Of a stretch of 64,000 nucleotides of DNA, positions 27,597 through 62,493 are shown piece by piece. This DNA comes from Trichothermofontia sichuanensis B231 (GTDB lineage Bacteria > Cyanobacteriota > Cyanobacteriia > B231): positions 1,366,501-1,430,500 of the forward strand of contig NZ_CP110848.1 in NCBI RefSeq assembly GCF_026240635.1, in the 5' to 3' direction. A model generated the notes under the pieces. The model was given only the letters and a program-made list of their open reading frames with translations, was not told the origin of the DNA and made no database searches. Made by a program: the position numbers and the translations under genes. Each line of letters starts with the position of its first letter. Positions within the stretch are counted from its first letter, which is position 1.

Positions 27597-28496
27597 TCAG
27601 TCTTTTCGCGGTGTAGGTTTCTTGCCTGGAGACGGTGGGGTCACCCTGGCCGATGGCTGCTGGGTGGGTGGGCTGGGGCGACGGGTGGCGGGGCGACGGG
27701 GTGGGGACGGGGCGCTGGGCGGCGCAGTCGCAACCGCTTCCCTGGCCGTGCTACTGGGTGAACGGGCAGGGGTAGGATTCAGGCCCTCTTGGAAATGACT
27801 TACCGTGACAATTACAGCAATCATGAAATAGAACAACCGTAATCCCCAGCTACAGAGGGTCATCAGGGTAGTAACGATTGCCGTCCCCAGGCCCGTTACT
27901 TTGGCAAACTGATCCTCTACCCGCGCATCAATCCGCGTCGCTCGTTGCATTTCCGGCTGACTGGTGGGCAGCGTCGTATAACGGGCTGTATAGAGATAGA
28001 AACCCCACAATCCCTGGCTTTGGATGCGATCGTCGAGGTAGGCATTCGTCAGGGCGATCGCCTCTGATCGATTTAACTGTGCTTGATCGGCCACGGCCTC
28101 GAGCCAGCGATCGTAACGGACCTGGGGACTGATCATCAAAATAAGCGGTACGAGAACAATTAACAGGGCCGCACTCAGCCGCTGTCCCCACTGGCTAGAT
28201 AACCAACGGGTCAGCATCCCAAACCCCAAGCCCAAAATTGCAAAGACCAGGAGGTTGCTGAGTTCTGCCAACTCCAGGCTTTGCAGCAAGCCGCCCAAGA
28301 AGGGAATCGGGTAGATCACAGACTCGGCAAGTTGGCTCAGGAGGTACTTGACAAGGGCTGCCGTTGCTGTCACCGCGATCGCGCCACCGCCATAGAGGGC
28401 GAGACGAACAGGGAAGCGGGTGAGGGGAGAAGGCACGTGCATGGGGGCTGTGACGATCGCCGTTGATGGAGCTAGGGGGGACTTAGAGACCTGCAT
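27597..28496 (-). CDS. Membrane protein of unknown function with proline-rich tail
   Basis: A protein of about 299 residues that I do not recognise. It has four or five hydrophobic segments: LALYGGGAIAVTATAALV, LLQSLELAELSNLLVFAILGLGFGML (in parts), LSAALLIVLVPLILMI and, near the end, TALMTLCSWGLRLFYFMIAVIVTV-like. A loop between them (about residues 130-190) is polar with DDRIQSQGLWGFYLYTARYT. The last 70 residues are Ser/Pro/Arg-rich. I chose ATG 28496 (MQVSKSPL), where the frame continues open to 28589. It is directly downstream of the kinase gene and may be in its transcript. Confidence 0.65.
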   Translation of the reverse strand: MQVSKSPLAPSTAIVTAPMHVPSPLTRFPVRLALYGGGAIAVTATAALVKYLLSQLAESVIYPIPFLGGLLQSLELAELSNLLVFAILGLGFGMLTRWLSSQWGQRLSAALLIVLVPLILMISPQVRYDRWLEAVADQAQLNRSEAIALTNAYLDDRIQSQGLWGFYLYTARYTTLPTSQPEMQRATRIDARVEDQFAKVTGLGTAIVTTLMTLCSWGLRLFYFMIAVIVTVSHFQEGLNPTPARSPSSTAREAVATAPPSAPSPPRRPATRRPSPPTQQPSARVTPPSPGKKPTPRKD

Positions 28497-28589
28497 AGTC
28501 GGTGGTATCCCAAGACAGAAAAAGAGCGAGGACCGCCGCTCAGCGATGGTCCAAAAAAGTTGCGCTGATGATAGCACTCTTGTCGGCAA

Positions 28590-31500
28590 CTAGACGGACC
28601 AGGGTAAATGCAGGCTGAAGGTTGTCCAGTTTTGCTGACTGTCCAGGGTGAGGGTACCGCCCAGGGACTCTACCAGCTTTTTCACCAGAGCAAGGCCCAA
28701 ACCCGTGCCGCTATGTTTCCAGGGGTTGGCGTTGGGAATCCGGTAGAAAGTGTTAAAAATCCGATCGTGTTCAATGATGGGAATTTCCACACCAGAATTT
28801 TTGACTTGGAGGATAACCGTGGTGGCCGTGGTTTGCACGCCTAGCTGGATCGTTTCCCCCGCCGGTGTGTGCTTAAACGCATTGTCGAGCAACTCGGTCA
28901 GGCTCCGTTCTAGGTAGGCCAAATCTGTTATTAGGAGGGGGATGGCTTCCGGTATCTCCAGATGAAACTGCTGCTGCTGTTGTTGGGCACGATCTTGGAA
29001 ACGTTGGGCAATCTGGGGCAAAAAATAGCGCAGATCAATTGCAGTTGGCATCAGTGGCTCCGTCTCAGCCTCCAGCCGCGTCAGCCAGAGTAGATCGTTG
29101 ATCAAGCGAATTTCCCGTTCCGTTTCGCTTTTAAGGATGCTGAGGTAGCGATCGTAATCGTCACGCATCCCAGCTTGTTGCAGCAACAAGTCCAGCATTT
29201 GGGTCGATAGTTTGATATTCGACATCGGCGTGCGCAACTCGTGAGACACCGTACTGAGGAAGTCATCCTTAAGCCGGTTCAACCGTTCGAGTTCCTCCAC
29301 CTGGGCCTGGGCAGCCTGATACAGCCGGGATTGACGCAGGGCGATCGCGCACTGGTTAGCCACCTGTTGCACCAGACGCACCTCCTGCTCATTAAAGACA
29401 CTGGTATGGGGCTTAAATAACCAGATGTCTCCCAGCACCCCCTGATCATCCACAATCGGACAGGCCAGAATGGTTAGGCGCTGCTGCCAGGCACCAGTGG
29501 CGGCACTGGGCGAAGCCAGGGGATTGGGGCCAACACCACAAAATTGGCAGGACTCACCCCTAAATAAGTAGGGATAAATTTCAGGGCAGGGAGCATTAGC
29601 AATGTTGAAAGTTTTGCCGACGGCTGGGGCTAGATGGGTATTAACTTCGTGGGCGATCGTGGATTGGGTATGGTCAGCATTGTAAATGCCGGTATCACAG
29701 GCTTCTACCTGAAGTCCCTGGGCTAACTCTTCAACCGCTGTTTGCAAAATCTGGTGTTCATCGAGGCTATCGCGGACCTTATCAGTAATGCGTTTAAGCC
29801 GTGCTTCAAAATCTAGGGCCTGCTGGAGTTGAGCCGTGCGTTCTTGCACTTGCCGATCCAGCGTGGCATTTAATACATTCACTTGCTGATGCAATTCAGC
29901 CTGCTGAATGGCGATCGCTAATTGACCCGCCAATTGTTGCAACAGCCGCCCCTCGATCGCCTCCCACCACCGGGGTCCCTGGCAGTGGTGGGCAATCAAC
30001 AATCCCCAAAGTCGACCACTGTGAATGATCGGCACCACCAACTTCGCCCGCACCTGCAGGCGCTCCAGCATTTCGATATGGCACTCTGAAAAACCCACAC
30101 TGTAAATATCATTCACCGCATTGACATGGTTATCGTGGTAGGTGCTGCCCTGGGTTTCAACAAAGCAGGAATCCGTAATTTCCAGAGAGAGAATCGGTAA
30201 CCAACCTGCTGCTACAGACTCGGCCAGAACCACCCCGTGCCAATCAGCAGTAAAGCGGTAGATAATCACGCGATCGGTGTCCAGGAATTGCCGCACTTCT
30301 TCGACAGTCGTCTGCAGGATCTGAGTCAGATCAAGGGAGGCGCGGATGTGATAATCGATAAAATGGATCATGCGCTCCCGCTGGAATTCGTACTGCACCT
30401 GCGCTTCCGTCTGTTTGCGGGCCGTGATATCGCAAATGTAGCCATGCCAGAGGACACTCCCATCGGCCAATTTTTCCGGCATGGCATGGCCTTCGCGCCA
30501 TTGCACACCCTTTTCCGGCAGGATCACCCGGTATTCGTCATGCCAGAGGGTCAGGTTGTGAAAGGATTGCCAAATGCCATCAACCACCCACTTCACGTCA
30601 TCGGGATGTAACCGTGTCAATATAACGCTGGCATCCTCCCGCACCTGCTCAGGCGTCACCTCATAGATCTCACGAATACCTTCGCTGGCATAGGGAAAAC
30701 AACAACGGCCATCGGGGTAGAGCCGGTATTGATAAACCACCCCCGGCACCTGTTGTAACAGTTTGCGCAACATCTCATCGCGATCGCGCAGGTGTTGATC
30801 CATACGCTTGCGATCGGTAACATCCACATAGGTGATGGCCACTCCATATTGTTCTAGGGGAATCGGCGCGGCACTCACATTGAGCCAGCGGACCTGGCCA
30901 CTGGGTTGCACAACCCCCATCTCAACATTCTCAACCGGCACATTTTCCCGCAAAGCCCGAACACTCGCATATTCCTCAGGGGGCATAGGTGACCCGTCCG
31001 GACGAATAATCTGCCAGTTGGGGGCATCGAAATCCCGGCGCAGGTGCTCAGCCGCATCTATCCCCAAAATCCGCTCAGAAGCAGGGTTAACCTCGATCAA
31101 CTGCCCCTGGGCATCTGTAATGGAAACCCCAATGGGCAACGTCTGGAACAAGATCTGGTATTTCTGCTGGCTTTCGTAAAGGGCTGCCTCAATCCGGACC
31201 CGATCGCTGATGTCGATACTGGTGCCAATCAAGCGGTAAATCCGCCCGGTAGCATCGCGCAGCGGGGTGAGTTTGGTTAACCACCAGGTATCCTGTCCTT
31301 GAAACGGAAGGCATTCTTCGTAAACGATCGGTTGCCCTGCCAAAACACAACTACGATAGTGGGAGCGGACCGCAGCCGCCACGCTAGGGGGGAAGAAGGC
31401 TTCTGGGGTTTGCCCCTGGATATCCTGGTTCCGAATCCCCGTCAGGCGCTCATGGGCAGGGTTGAGACCCGCATAGCGGAAGTGGCCATCGGACAACACA

Positions 31501-33128
31501 TCAACCACAAAAATTGAGACATCACACCCATCGTAAATACTGCGCAAAAAAGCTTCTTGCTCCCGCAGGGTCTGCTCAGCAGCCACGCGATCGCTCACAT
31601 CCCGACAAATGCCAAAAAGGGCAGGGCGATTCTCCCAACTTCCCAACGCTACTCTCGTTTCTACCGCGATCTCGGTGCCATCCTTGGTCAGCACTGGGAT
31701 TCTACAGAGGGTACGCTGGCCAGCGAGCATTTCGGCAACGATCGCGACGACCTCTGATCGTTGCTCAGGGGGATGGAGATCCAGGATCGTGAGGGTTTTC
31801 AGTTCAGCCTCGGTATAACCCAGCCAGGTTTGCGCAATCCGATTCGCTCGGAGAATATGCCCCGCTGCATCCGCCACAAACACAAAATCTTCTAGCGAGT
31901 TAAATAAAATTTCTAACTGAGTCTGGCTCTCCTGCAGGGCGATCTCAGTCTGTTTCTGGGCAGTAATGTCGGTATTGGTTCCGATCATGCGCAGGGGTTC
32001 TCCCGCGACTGTCCGGTCCACCACCTCCCCCTGCACCTGAACCCAGCAGTAACTCCCTGCCTCAACCTCGAAACGATACTCACTGCGGAACGGGTGAGTG
32101 CCTTCGTGCCAATCGTGCAAATACTGATCGACCGCAGCGATCACCCTGCCCCGGTCATCCGGATGAATGCGCTGCGCCCATTCCCCATAAGTAAACCGAA
32201 TCTCCGTATCCGTGTGACCCTCTGGAGACGACTGGCGACGATACATCACCATCGTATTGCTAGCCAGATCCCAATCCCAGACAGCATCGCCACTAATAGC
32301 CGGTGGATCGTTAGGGGACATCGCAGTGGGACAGGCATGGTCGCCTTCCCAACCCCTATCCCCTGCCCCTGCCGTGACCTTCTCAGGTAGCCGCAAGTCG
32401 GCCTGATTAGACTGACGAAGATGGGGGTAATGAGACTGATCAATGGGATCAATGGGATCAATGGGATTGCCAGCGTTGCCAGCGTCAGCCAAGGCTGTCG
32501 GCGCAAGCGGTACGATCGTCGGCGACAACCTTGGAAGCAAAGCACGCTGGCGGCCAGACTCGACCTGCGCAGCGTCTCCATCAGCACAATCAGATAGAGC
32601 CATCCCCAAGTGCATGGCTACCTGTTGCAAATACTGAATCTCCAAGGACTGCCATTGACGCGGCCCCCTACACTGATGCACAATGAGTGCCCCCCACAAG
32701 GTAAGATCATTCGTTAACACCGGCACCACGACCTTAGCCCACACCTGATGCCGCTTGAGCAGGGCACGCTGACAAGCAGGCATGGCTGCGACATAAGCAT
32801 CTGCAATACTCCTGACCTGACCTTGCTGGAGGCATTCGAGCCAGCTTTGCGCTAGGTCAAGGTCTGGCATCAACGGCTCCACGATCGGGCGCCAGGGACT
32901 ATTGACCACTTCTGCCTGCACGACCCCTTCCCCCTCCGGCAAAAGGTGATACAGGATGACACGATCGACGTGCAGCGTATCTCGCACCCTTTCCAGCATT
33001 TCGTTGAGATGGGCAGCCAAATCGGTACTTTGCGCCAGGGCATGGGCGATCGCTGCGACAGATTCTAGAACGCTTTCTAGGGAGGGGAATGCCCCGGTCA
33101 TGGGTACTACTACGGATAAATGCGACAT
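28590..33128 (-). CDS. Multi-PAS/GAF sensor histidine kinase with a cyanobacteriochrome-like GAF
   Basis: A 1512-residue orphan kinase without membrane helices. In order: GAF-1 (about 30-185), a low-complexity linker with an NPIDPIDPID repeat, five PAS/PAC units (about 270-920), GAF-2 (930-1085), coiled coil, GAF-3 (1100-1260), HisKA with FLSTVSHELRTPMSN (His1296) and HATPase ending GTGLGLALVKKLV. GAF-2 carries both cyanobacteriochrome cysteine signatures: DSCF (Cys988) and ECHIEML (Cys1016-His1017), followed by QVRAKLVVPI and LWGLLIAHHC. This is the pattern of DXCF-type bilin photosensors. GAF-1 has a Cys at the second position without His. No response regulator is adjacent. The start is ATG 33128; a TTG lies at 33149. 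Confidence 0.9.
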   Translation of the reverse strand: MSHLSVVVPMTGAFPSLESVLESVAAIAHALAQSTDLAAHLNEMLERVRDTLHVDRVILYHLLPEGEGVVQAEVVNSPWRPIVEPLMPDLDLAQSWLECLQQGQVRSIADAYVAAMPACQRALLKRHQVWAKVVVPVLTNDLTLWGALIVHQCRGPRQWQSLEIQYLQQVAMHLGMALSDCADGDAAQVESGRQRALLPRLSPTIVPLAPTALADAGNAGNPIDPIDPIDQSHYPHLRQSNQADLRLPEKVTAGAGDRGWEGDHACPTAMSPNDPPAISGDAVWDWDLASNTMVMYRRQSSPEGHTDTEIRFTYGEWAQRIHPDDRGRVIAAVDQYLHDWHEGTHPFRSEYRFEVEAGSYCWVQVQGEVVDRTVAGEPLRMIGTNTDITAQKQTEIALQESQTQLEILFNSLEDFVFVADAAGHILRANRIAQTWLGYTEAELKTLTILDLHPPEQRSEVVAIVAEMLAGQRTLCRIPVLTKDGTEIAVETRVALGSWENRPALFGICRDVSDRVAAEQTLREQEAFLRSIYDGCDVSIFVVDVLSDGHFRYAGLNPAHERLTGIRNQDIQGQTPEAFFPPSVAAAVRSHYRSCVLAGQPIVYEECLPFQGQDTWWLTKLTPLRDATGRIYRLIGTSIDISDRVRIEAALYESQQKYQILFQTLPIGVSITDAQGQLIEVNPASERILGIDAAEHLRRDFDAPNWQIIRPDGSPMPPEEYASVRALRENVPVENVEMGVVQPSGQVRWLNVSAAPIPLEQYGVAITYVDVTDRKRMDQHLRDRDEMLRKLLQQVPGVVYQYRLYPDGRCCFPYASEGIREIYEVTPEQVREDASVILTRLHPDDVKWVVDGIWQSFHNLTLWHDEYRVILPEKGVQWREGHAMPEKLADGSVLWHGYICDITARKQTEAQVQYEFQRERMIHFIDYHIRASLDLTQILQTTVEEVRQFLDTDRVIIYRFTADWHGVVLAESVAAGWLPILSLEITDSCFVETQGSTYHDNHVNAVNDIYSVGFSECHIEMLERLQVRAKLVVPIIHSGRLWGLLIAHHCQGPRWWEAIEGRLLQQLAGQLAIAIQQAELHQQVNVLNATLDRQVQERTAQLQQALDFEARLKRITDKVRDSLDEHQILQTAVEELAQGLQVEACDTGIYNADHTQSTIAHEVNTHLAPAVGKTFNIANAPCPEIYPYLFRGESCQFCGVGPNPLASPSAATGAWQQRLTILACPIVDDQGVLGDIWLFKPHTSVFNEQEVRLVQQVANQCAIALRQSRLYQAAQAQVEELERLNRLKDDFLSTVSHELRTPMSNIKLSTQMLDLLLQQAGMRDDYDRYLSILKSETEREIRLINDLLWLTRLEAETEPLMPTAIDLRYFLPQIAQRFQDRAQQQQQQFHLEIPEAIPLLITDLAYLERSLTELLDNAFKHTPAGETIQLGVQTTATTVILQVKNSGVEIPIIEHDRIFNTFYRIPNANPWKHSGTGLGLALVKKLVESLGGTLTLDSQQNWTTFSLHLPWSV
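32439..32465. repeat. Three perfect 9-bp units within the kinase gene
   Basis: ATCAATGGG is repeated three times in tandem. Because the unit is 9 bp it adds Ile-Asp-Pro triplets in frame (PIDPIDPID on the minus strand) in the linker between GAF-1 and the first PAS domain. It is a candidate length-variable coding repeat. Confidence 0.75.
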
Positions 33129-33661
33129 TAAGCTTAGAGGATGTGGCAACGATCACGCTAGCAACAATTACATGGGCCATCAGGGGAACGCGATTAGTCC
33201 TTGCTTCTGCCAACATGAGAGAAGGAGAGGGAGGACTTTATTCTAATGATACCCACCTACTTAGCCCTTCCATCAGGGGAATCTACCCATTCTTTTGGAA
33301 ATCATTTTTAAAGCATTTTTTAGAAAACAATTTAAAAACTCCTCCCCTATCATACGGAACTTGATGATCCCAACCCTCTGAGATCCAATTGATCGAAGAA
33401 TTTAAACATAGGTTTGCAATCAAGCTGCCTGCGATTGCGGTAACACCATCCATAGTCAAAGACAATGCCAACATAGGTCGTATTTATACGGATATTTTCC
33501 GCTTGCCTTAATTAGGTGTTCGAGGCAAGGCAACCGAGCGAACCTTGACATTAACAAGACTCACGCCAGTCTGCTAAGCCAGGCAAGCATCACTGTCTAG
33601 GAATTGGTGGTGTCGATAAGATTAAGAGACGTAAAGGAGTCATGGTAAACTCAGAAGGCGT

Positions 33662-36269: not shown

Positions 36270-39200
36270 ATGCCTCCTCGTCCATCACAGGCCCCCCAAT
36301 CAGGTGAGGCAGTCGATCGTGCCGCCCCCTCCGGACCGGGTTGGTTAAGTCCCCCCATTCAAGCCATGTTTGCCGGTGCCTTTGATGCTCTGCTGGTGGT
36401 CGATAATGGGGGCCGCTGTGTGGCCGTCAACCGGGCAGCCTGTGAGCTGTGGGAACTACCCCCCTCTGCCTTGTGCGATCGCGCCATTACCGACTTTACC
36501 GACCCCAACGATGCCCTCGGTCGCCTGTGGCCCTTAAGTGTGCACTCAGCAACCCTAGTACGGGGGGAAGGCTGTTTGTACTGTTCCCCCACCCACACCC
36601 GGCAGGTGGCCTTTACGCTGGCGATGAACACCTGGCCCGATTACCACCTGTTAACCCTTTGCGATCGCTCACAAGCGTGGCAACCTCATAGGCCAAAGGC
36701 ATCCCAATACGAACACCGTGAGTACCAGCCCTCCCATTGGCTGGAAATAGCTTTGGACGCGATTCCCGATCCGATTTTTTTGAAGGATGCCCAGGGGCGC
36801 TGGCAACTGGTCAATCAGGCAGCCCTCGATCTCTTGCAGTTGACCCGTAGCGATTACCAGGGGCATACCGATGCCGAACTGGCTGAGCAGATGCCGTTCT
36901 ACCGAGAGGCGCTCCTGGCTTGCATTGGGAGTGATGAAGCTGCCTGGGCGCAACAGGGTTTATGCCGAACTGAAGTAGCCATCCCCCAGCCCACGGGGGA
37001 GATGCGCACCTTTGATATTTATAAAGTCCCCCTGTTTCACGTTGATGGCACGCGTCGGGGCATCGTGGTAGTCGGGCACGATATTAGCGATCGCAAACAG
37101 GCAGAGACCAACCTGCGGCGCTATGAGCGGATCGTGGCTGCGATCCCTGACGGGATGGCGTTAGTCGATCGCACCTATCACTATCAAGCCATTAACCAGA
37201 CTTATCTGGATTGGCATCAGAAAACGGCTGAGCAAGTGGTTGGCCATCCGGTTACCGAGATTTTGGGTGAGGAATGTTTTAATCGGGTGATCAAAGCCTA
37301 TTTAGACAATGCTCTTGCTGGTCAAGTCGTGCATTATCAAGAATGGTTTACCTACCCCAGCCTTGGCCCCCAGTTCATGGGAGTGACCTATGCACCGTGT
37401 ACAGAGGAAAGCGGGGCGATTGCCGGCGTAGTGATCTACCAACGAATTTTAACCGAACTCAAACGCACAGAAATGACCCTCCAACAACTGGCCAAACGCG
37501 AATCACTGCTGGCGACCATTAATAACCGGATGCGCCAAAGCCTGGATCTCAAAAGTATCCTCCAGACGGTGGTGACGGAAGTCCGGACGTTCCTGCAAAC
37601 CGATCGGGTCCTCGTCTATCGCTTTAACGCCAGTGGCAATGGCACCGTCATCGCCGAATCCGTCGCCGATGGTTGGCTCTCCCTGGCCGGTTTTATGATT
37701 GGTGACCCCTGCCTCCAGGAGGATCGCTTACTGGCAACCCTGGCCCAGGGCGAGCCTCGGAATATTCCTGATGTGGGTTGTTCTCGGCTCAACGCTTGCT
37801 ACCTGGAGATGCTGAGCCAGTTCCAAGTCCGAGCCAATTTAGCTCTGCCCCTGTTGCAAGGCCAGCGCGTGTGGGGGTTGCTGATTGCCCATCACTGTCG
37901 ATCGCCGCGCCACTGGCAGTCCGAAGAAATTGATTTGCTCAAACAACTCTCTGGCCAATTGGCGATCGCCATTCAACAGTCGGAACTCTACCGTCAGGTC
38001 CAGGATCTCAATCAGGATCTGGAACATCAGGTTAGGGTTCGCACCGCAGAACTGCAACAAGCAATCCAGTTTGAAGGGTTGGTTAAGCGGATTACCGATA
38101 AGGTGCGCGATAGTCTCGATGAGCAGCAAATTCTCCAAACGGTTGTACAAGAATTAGCTCAGGGGATGGCCATAGAAGGATGTAATACGGGTATCTATAA
38201 CAAAACCTATACAACTTCAACGATTACGAATGAGTTTATCAAGAATCTCAAAAATATCCAGGGAACCACGATCGCGCTTACCACGGCAGCCTACGCAGAC
38301 ATTTATGCCCATCTGCTACAAGGCAAGACCTGTATCTTTGGGGAGCTATCCCCTAATTCTCTGCGATCGCAGACACGTTTGTTCGCAATCCTAGCCTGCC
38401 CGATCGCTGACGATCAAAATATTTTAGGTGACCTCTGGATTTTCAAAGATCGCAGCGCTAGCTTTAATGACCAAGAAATTCGCCTGGTACAACAGGTTGC
38501 CAGCCAATGCGCGATCGCCTTGCGTCAAGCACGGCTGTACCAAGCCGCGCAAGCCCAAGTCGCCGAACTGGAACGGCTGAACCAACTAAAAGATGACTTC
38601 CTCAGTACCGTCTCCCATGAACTGCGGACCCCTATGTCCAATATCAAAATGGCAACCCAGATGCTAGAGATCCAACTTACCCGTTTGGGTATGTTGGGGA
38701 AAGATGCTACTCAGGAAGCCCACACTGCCCAAGTCAATCGTTACTTCACAATTTTGCAGGAAGAATGTCAACGGGAGATAACCCTCATCAACGATTTGCT
38801 CGATTTAACCCGTCTGGATGCTAGTCTAGAGCCATTGCATATAATTCCCATTGAATTAAGGGCCTGGATATATCTGATCACAGAACCCTTTAACTACCTG
38901 CTGCGATCGCACCAACAAACGCTCGAAATTGCCATTCCACCCACCCTCACCCTAGAAACGGATATTACCTATCTAGAGCGCATTCTACGGGAATTGTTGA
39001 ATAATGCCTGCAAATACACCCCCCCTGGGGAGATAATTCGCATTACTGCCCAAGAAATGGAGACTGTCAGCGGAACCACGGTGGAACTGCGGATTAGTAA
39101 TCGGGGGATTGAAATTCCTGCGGCTGAATATGAGCGCATCTTCGAGCGCTTCTATCGTATCCCCAGCCAGGATCGATGGCAACATGGTGGGACAGGTTTA

Positions 39201-39329
39201 GGGTTAGCCCTCGTGAAGCGATTGGTAGAACGCCTTGGCAGCATAATTTGGGTTGAATCGGCATCAAACCATACCCATTTTGTCATCTGCTTACCGGCCC
39301 ACCCCTCAGCTTCCCAGCCGGTTGCTTAG
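36270..39329 (+). CDS. PAS/GAF sensor histidine kinase, paralogue of the 1512-residue kinase
   Basis: A 1019-residue orphan kinase. Three PAS units (about 30-140, 155-285, 290-410), GAF-1 (425-585), coiled coil with DLNQDLEHQVRVRTAEL, GAF-2 (620-770), HisKA with FLSTVSHELRTPMSN (His783) and HATPase (NNACKYTPPGE, GTGLGLALVKRLVERLG). From GAF-1 to the end it is clearly homologous to the other kinase. In GAF-1 the two cyanobacteriochrome positions are degenerate: DPCL instead of DXCF (Cys481) and ACYLEML instead of CH (Cys510-Tyr511). Both cysteines are kept, so chromophore binding is possible but less certain. Start ATG 36270 has no strong ribosome-binding site. Confidence 0.88.
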   Translation: MPPRPSQAPQSGEAVDRAAPSGPGWLSPPIQAMFAGAFDALLVVDNGGRCVAVNRAACELWELPPSALCDRAITDFTDPNDALGRLWPLSVHSATLVRGEGCLYCSPTHTRQVAFTLAMNTWPDYHLLTLCDRSQAWQPHRPKASQYEHREYQPSHWLEIALDAIPDPIFLKDAQGRWQLVNQAALDLLQLTRSDYQGHTDAELAEQMPFYREALLACIGSDEAAWAQQGLCRTEVAIPQPTGEMRTFDIYKVPLFHVDGTRRGIVVVGHDISDRKQAETNLRRYERIVAAIPDGMALVDRTYHYQAINQTYLDWHQKTAEQVVGHPVTEILGEECFNRVIKAYLDNALAGQVVHYQEWFTYPSLGPQFMGVTYAPCTEESGAIAGVVIYQRILTELKRTEMTLQQLAKRESLLATINNRMRQSLDLKSILQTVVTEVRTFLQTDRVLVYRFNASGNGTVIAESVADGWLSLAGFMIGDPCLQEDRLLATLAQGEPRNIPDVGCSRLNACYLEMLSQFQVRANLALPLLQGQRVWGLLIAHHCRSPRHWQSEEIDLLKQLSGQLAIAIQQSELYRQVQDLNQDLEHQVRVRTAELQQAIQFEGLVKRITDKVRDSLDEQQILQTVVQELAQGMAIEGCNTGIYNKTYTTSTITNEFIKNLKNIQGTTIALTTAAYADIYAHLLQGKTCIFGELSPNSLRSQTRLFAILACPIADDQNILGDLWIFKDRSASFNDQEIRLVQQVASQCAIALRQARLYQAAQAQVAELERLNQLKDDFLSTVSHELRTPMSNIKMATQMLEIQLTRLGMLGKDATQEAHTAQVNRYFTILQEECQREITLINDLLDLTRLDASLEPLHIIPIELRAWIYLITEPFNYLLRSHQQTLEIAIPPTLTLETDITYLERILRELLNNACKYTPPGEIIRITAQEMETVSGTTVELRISNRGIEIPAAEYERIFERFYRIPSQDRWQHGGTGLGLALVKRLVERLGSIIWVESASNHTHFVICLPAHPSASQPVA

Positions 39330-59183: not shown

Positions 59184-62493
<3,310 letters not shown>

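Follow-up and report, generated by a model that had tools for sequence, protein, structure and literature searches.

The 1512-residue histidine kinase encoded on the minus strand of the window, by which we mean the whole stretch of 64,000 nucleotides analyzed here, carries a cyanobacteriochrome (CBCR) GAF domain, GAF2, whose second cysteine seems to be a regain within a lineage of one-cysteine sensors. With this one-cysteine ancestry and the regained Cys988, GAF2 probably performs two-cysteine bilin photochemistry within an orphan kinase, as far as can be judged from its sequence.

A multi-sensor kinase and its cyanobacteriochrome domain

The open reading frame extends across 1519 codons (28590-33149), and an ATG at 33128 gives the 1512-residue product. 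Pfam recovers three GAF stretches, a tandem of PAS domains (five units by position), HisKA (residues 1287-1355) and HATPase_c (residues 1404-1509), matching the five PAS and three GAF units that the first-pass annotation had described. The HisKA histidine and the N and G2 boxes of the ATPase domain are intact, as in sensor histidine kinases. The kinase had also been called an orphan and, in this regard, the larger open reading frames scanned between 20013 and 63979 include no response regulator. Directly behind the kinase stop and on the same strand lies a 330-residue open reading frame (27597-28589, minus strand) that contains hydrophobic stretches, matches no Pfam family and is a possible operon partner. 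Additionally, a second CBCR-like sensor kinase, of 1019 residues, is encoded 3 kb from the first (36270-39329, plus strand); its GAF domain, at about residues 410-577, reads DPCL...CY and is placed by the tree in a small two-cysteine DPCL/DACL...CY clade.

Table 1. Features of the kinase gene and its sensor domains (positions within the window).
Feature	Position	Strand	Remarks
Multi-sensor histidine kinase, 1512 residues	28590..33128	-	GAF1-PAS x5-GAF2-GAF3-HisKA-HATPase
GAF1, residues 31-180	32589..33038	-	Counterpart of N-terminal DXCF CBCR GAFs, from tree clade and motif table
DLDL of GAF1, residues 89-92	32853..32864	-	At the DPCF place of relatives
Five PAS units, residues 284-905	30414..32279	-	Pfam PAS_3, PAS_4, PAS, PAS_9; borders by inspection
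GAF2, residues 927-1082	29883..30350	-	CBCR photosensory domain with both cysteines; Pfam, alignment, tree, fold match
DSCF with second cysteine Cys988	30162..30173	-	Encoded by TGC; 33 of the 37 clade relatives have Tyr
Canonical Cys1016-His1017	30078..30083	-	TGCCAT; predicted bilin attachment
Lys1029	30042..30044	-	One-cysteine clade signature; column of N99, a chromophore-contact position changed in miRFP670nano (PMC6336887)
Ile1045	29994..29996	-	DXCF-like residue; D-ring position tied to PCB-to-PVB isomerization (PMC11284453)
GAF3, residues 1122-1264	29337..29765	-	Ordinary GAF without CBCR motifs; very weak CBCR-profile match
HisKA and HATPase	28602..29270	-	SHELRTP, His1296; N box LLDNAFKHT; G2 box GTGLGLA

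By sequence, GAF2 is a cyanobacteriochrome GAF domain. Among solved CBCR domains its best match is PPHK (6OAP, E 1e-52), followed by NpR6012g4 (6BHN), AnPixJ and miRFP670nano, and TePixJ matches at about 3e-31. A canonical cysteine followed by histidine is present, and the motif D986-S-C988-F places the second cysteine 28 residues before Cys1016. The codons concerned (for Cys988, TGC at 30165-30167) are exactly where the first-pass annotation had put them. The alignment to TePixJ-type GAFs that it had proposed as a check brings both cysteines into register: against TePixJ (3VV4), GAF2 aligns ungapped across 88 residues from the DXCF motif onward, with Cys988 over the cysteine of DPCF and Cys1016 over that of CHL, and the placement of the two residues in the pocket rests on this ungapped alignment. 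An AlphaFold2 model of GAF2, of modest quality (pLDDT 71, and below 60 around the DXCF segment, model residues 81-110), gave the 6OAP series, AnPixJ, miRFP670nano and TePixJ as top matches in a fold search.

The host had been expected to make bilins, with apcE present. The open reading frame at 59184-62045 indeed combines a phycobilisome domain with three linker domains, as in ApcE-type core-membrane linkers, and the genome encodes phycocyanobilin (PCB) synthesis, with two heme oxygenases and one ferredoxin-dependent bilin reductase that scores 352 bits against the PcyA equivalog model (cut-off 206). This supply, together with the retention of Asp986, Tyr997, Cys1016, His1017 and His1047 in GAF2, makes it very improbable that GAF1 and GAF2 have both ceased to bind bilin and that the kinase senses otherwise, through its PAS units or GAF3. 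Such a loss would accord with the divergence of GAF1 (DLDL...CQ) and with two GAF2 relatives (L128 in G507 and L129 in G486) in which even the canonical cysteine is replaced by serine (DNYF...SH). In these two domains the bilin is possibly bound non-covalently, or binding has been lost.

Ancestry of the second cysteine

Relatives of GAF2 were sought in several hundred cyanobacterial genomes, none closer to the host than class level and with the host as sole member of its family (f1). The sequence D-[STNQA]-Y-F-V-E-T-Q-G prevails among the closest of them, about 30 domains with 58-65% identity, and the second cysteine is present in none. Trees were built with the column of Cys988 removed. In the first of them (104 rows) GAF2 falls in a clade of 23 rows and none of the others has the second cysteine; the one-cysteine clade was named only once this tree had been built. 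In the larger tree (154 rows) GAF2 belongs to a 38-row clade (support 100/88) and is nested within it (95/92 and 96/94); it is the only row with a second cysteine.

The position within the clade was examined further. When GAF2 was regrafted onto 232 branches outside the clade, all placements were rejected, the best alternative being 17.4 lnL units worse (p-AU at most 0.026). Constraining the 36 other clade rows to group with one another yielded a borderline p-AU of 0.056, a less clean result than that of the regrafting. Under a two-state Mk model, a clade ancestor without the cysteine is favored by 11.6 lnL units, and retention of the cysteine down to GAF2 would require eight separate losses. 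At the place of Cys988 the clade uses TAT (23 rows), TAC (10) and TTT (2), plus CAC and GAC, and GAF2 has TGC. Because every placement outside the clade was rejected, a one-base regain from tyrosine to cysteine (TAC to TGC) seems the best and simplest reading of these sequences.

In the first-pass annotation GAF2 was taken for a candidate DXCF cyanobacteriochrome of the kind that attaches PCB and often senses blue versus green light. Read as an ordinary TePixJ-type domain, it would have kept the ancestral second cysteine, and a phycoviolobilin (PVB) chromophore would switch between blue and green. Part of this description stands: GAF2 is a CBCR domain, the alignment to TePixJ puts both cysteines in the structurally right places, and the host encodes PCB synthesis. 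Like TePixJ and other DXCF lineages (3VV4, 4FOF, 4GLQ, 6P58), GAF2 has the Cys-His pair and the DXCF cysteine at identical 28-residue spacing with no gap, and its Ile984 and Ile1045 are those of TePixJ. Membership in a TePixJ-like lineage, however, is not supported. GAF2 groups with one-cysteine lineages rather than with two-cysteine DXCF domains, with the regraft test and the eight independent losses against retention, and it bears traits of the one-cysteine clade: Lys1029 where the DXCF lineages have the asparagine of RANLVVP, VETQG after the motif, and no Gly-Arg after Tyr997. As read from these sequences, the tree refutes an ordinary DXCF ancestry, and we consider the annotation's view as a whole improbable. 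Its prediction of a blue/green photocycle from the motif is likewise unsupported, given some 30 closest relatives without the second cysteine and the position of GAF2 inside the one-cysteine clade. Because GAF2 nests in that clade and keeps its Lys1029, the color pair is not readable from the DXCF motif; a blue/green pair arising after the regain of Cys988 is possible.

Two further CBCR lineages were compared. The PPHK (6OAP, Leptolyngbya sp. JSC-1)/NpR3784 lineage gives the best sequence and structure match to GAF2 (42-46% identity in the model alignment), and its members carry a single canonical cysteine and D-X-Y-F-[VM]-E-T-[QR]-G, as in the clade of GAF2. They have tyrosine where GAF2 has cysteine, however, and the two clades are separate in the 154-row tree, while being neighbors in the smaller trees. 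GAF2 also lies outside the XRG clade, which includes AnPixJ and was anchored in our trees by NpR6012g4 (6BHN), and it has Ile984 instead of the tryptophan of the WXDXXL motif.

Regain of a second cysteine is already known in other CBCR lineages. It is described for XRG-lineage domains (Rockwell 2017, as cited in PMC11284453) and for AM1_1186g2, where the cysteine sits on helix alpha-3 and the domain switches from red to blue (PMC6628166); in both a second cysteine returned after loss, as proposed for GAF2, but in other lineages and, in AM1_1186g2, at another place. In RB2 CBCRs (CXDXXL, NpR3784 lineage), an extra cysteine regained within a one-cysteine lineage ligates C10 (as cited in PMC11284453); it stands two residues before the aspartate, not at the DXCF place. 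What appears to be new here is a regain inside the DXYF-Lys clade, which the larger tree sets apart from both the NpR3784 and the XRG anchors, combined with the reversal of the sensors described below. We found no characterized member of the DXYF-Lys clade in the literature accessible to us, which was mostly papers available without subscription.

The full-length kinase had no true orthologue among the contigs of the searched genomes (its own genome left out); one match (L022) has no CBCR GAF at the corresponding place. A DNA pattern for [YC]FVETxG matched in few genomes, among them G038, whose DRCFVETHG match the profile search did not recover as a CBCR GAF, and a plasmid search aimed at a named relative reached 47% identity at best. 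Adjoining the one-cysteine clade is a DTCF...CH group (L057, L064, L067, L082, L119) whose joint ancestor with it lacked the cysteine under the Mk model (0.975); this group may be another regain.

Chromophore pocket and proposed photocycle

Lys1029 is shared by 97% of the one-cysteine clade, whereas 91% of DXCF rows have asparagine there. Ile1045, on the other hand, differs from most clade members and is the residue of DXCF domains. Three positions have been linked to PCB-to-PVB isomerization (PMC11284453), which in our alignment correspond to 984, 987 and 1045: Ile/Ser/Ile in GAF2, Ile/Pro/Ile in TePixJ and Trp/Thr/Ala in the red/green AnPixJ. Two of the three residues of GAF2 are thus identical to those of TePixJ, and formation of PVB in GAF2 is plausible. 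The clade-type pocket, with Lys1029 and the missing Gly-Arg, may hinder C10 ligation.

We propose that the ancestor of GAF2 was a one-cysteine (DXYF) CBCR in which a Tyr-to-Cys change (TAY to TGC) restored the cysteine at the DXCF place. Following the general chemistry of DXCF domains (PMC11284453, PMC6628166), Cys1016 would carry PCB, or PVB derived from it, at C3-1, and in the dark 15Z state Cys988 would add to C10, so that the domain would absorb in the blue or violet. Light would isomerize the C15=C16 bond to E and the C10 bond would break, yielding a photoproduct whose absorption would lie in the green with PVB and in the orange to red with PCB; because GAF2 keeps the clade pocket (Lys1029, VETQG), either color may apply. 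The helix leaving GAF2 would then relay the change, via GAF3, to the HisKA-HATPase module.

Cys988 could instead be idle, a product of neutral drift, with GAF2 working as a one-cysteine red/green-type switch like PPHK and NpR3784. The nearest solved domain, PPHK, is such a sensor, and GAF2 has a clade-type pocket and a fairly long terminal branch (0.35 in the 154-row tree). We nevertheless regard an idle cysteine as unlikely: it occupies the only position from which C10 is known to be reached in DXCF domains, the aspartate and phenylalanine of DXCF and the canonical Cys-His pair are intact, and nearly all bilin-capable GAFs of the host genome have two cysteines. Of the 11 CBCR-like GAFs of the host (L001-L008 and the window) with a canonical cysteine followed by histidine or tyrosine, 10 carry a second cysteine in DXC[FL], which fits a leaning of the host sensors toward two-cysteine chemistry. 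Because two-cysteine sensors dominate this genome, a DXCF motif in GAF2 is as such less surprising. A further host GAF (L010) reads DACF...CQ, with glutamine after the canonical cysteine, like GAF1.

The regain of Cys988 in GAF2, as proposed here, bears on how CBCR colors are assigned, which is often done from the DXCF motif alone. Such a motif can be a recent regain; therefore, ancestry and pocket must also be read. Moreover, a single codon separates GAF2 from about 37 one-cysteine relatives, so that it can be tested cleanly if one residue suffices to install or remove a two-cysteine photocycle.

Mirror-image arrangement of GAF1 and GAF2

Whole-gene comparison with 18 relatives that have both sensors revealed the second cysteine in the N-terminal GAF (DPC[FLI]) of 15, its loss from that domain in three, and its absence from the C-terminal clade GAF in all 18. 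Dual-CBCR relatives with an N-terminal DPCF GAF, PAS, a DXYF GAF and GGDEF or HisKA (L173-L176, L181, L184-L189, L195, L196, L198, L199) share the sensor order of the 1512-residue kinase. They have the second cysteine in the N-terminal and none in the C-terminal sensor, whereas in this kinase the arrangement is reversed; among the proteins seen, it alone combines a C-terminal sensor that has the second cysteine with an N-terminal sensor that lacks it. Among four relatives whose outputs were checked, three end in GGDEF and one in GAF-HisKA-HATPase.

GAF1 groups with the N-terminal GAFs of these relatives (clade support 99/98) and is 42-44% identical to the G072 protein. Its branch is long (1.7 to 2.2), and it has lost the second cysteine and exchanged histidine for glutamine. 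Because GAF1 belongs to the N-terminal two-cysteine group and yet reads DLDL...CQ, the second cysteine has in effect moved from GAF1 to GAF2, and the two-cysteine role appears, from these motifs, to have been transferred from the first to the second sensor of the kinase. Tentatively, and with more doubt than confidence, we suggest that the two-cysteine (blue) role switched domains in this way: the N-terminal CBCR lost its cysteine and the C-terminal one-cysteine CBCR regained one by a single base, so that the protein still has one two-cysteine sensor, now sitting beside the kinase, and the DXCF cysteine combined with the Lys1029 pocket could give a color pair unseen in classical DXCF domains. 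With the mirror image formed by GAF1 and GAF2, one can also ask if it is important where the blue sensor lies with respect to the output domain.

Compensation between the loss in GAF1 and the gain in GAF2 is a hypothesis only, because losses of the GAF1 type are neither unique nor always paired with a gain. As a general rule it does not hold, since three relatives (L192, L194, L197) lost the N-terminal cysteine with no C-terminal regain. Two proteins that have lost the N-terminal DXCF cysteine (L192 in G141 and L197 in G281) contain an extra XRG-type GAF (DTHL...CH) after the DXYF GAF. At another locus (L171, on contig C41 of G006), two closely spaced paralogous kinases have DTFF GAFs, and a 489-residue GAF protein (DPCY...CD) is encoded nearby on the same strand.
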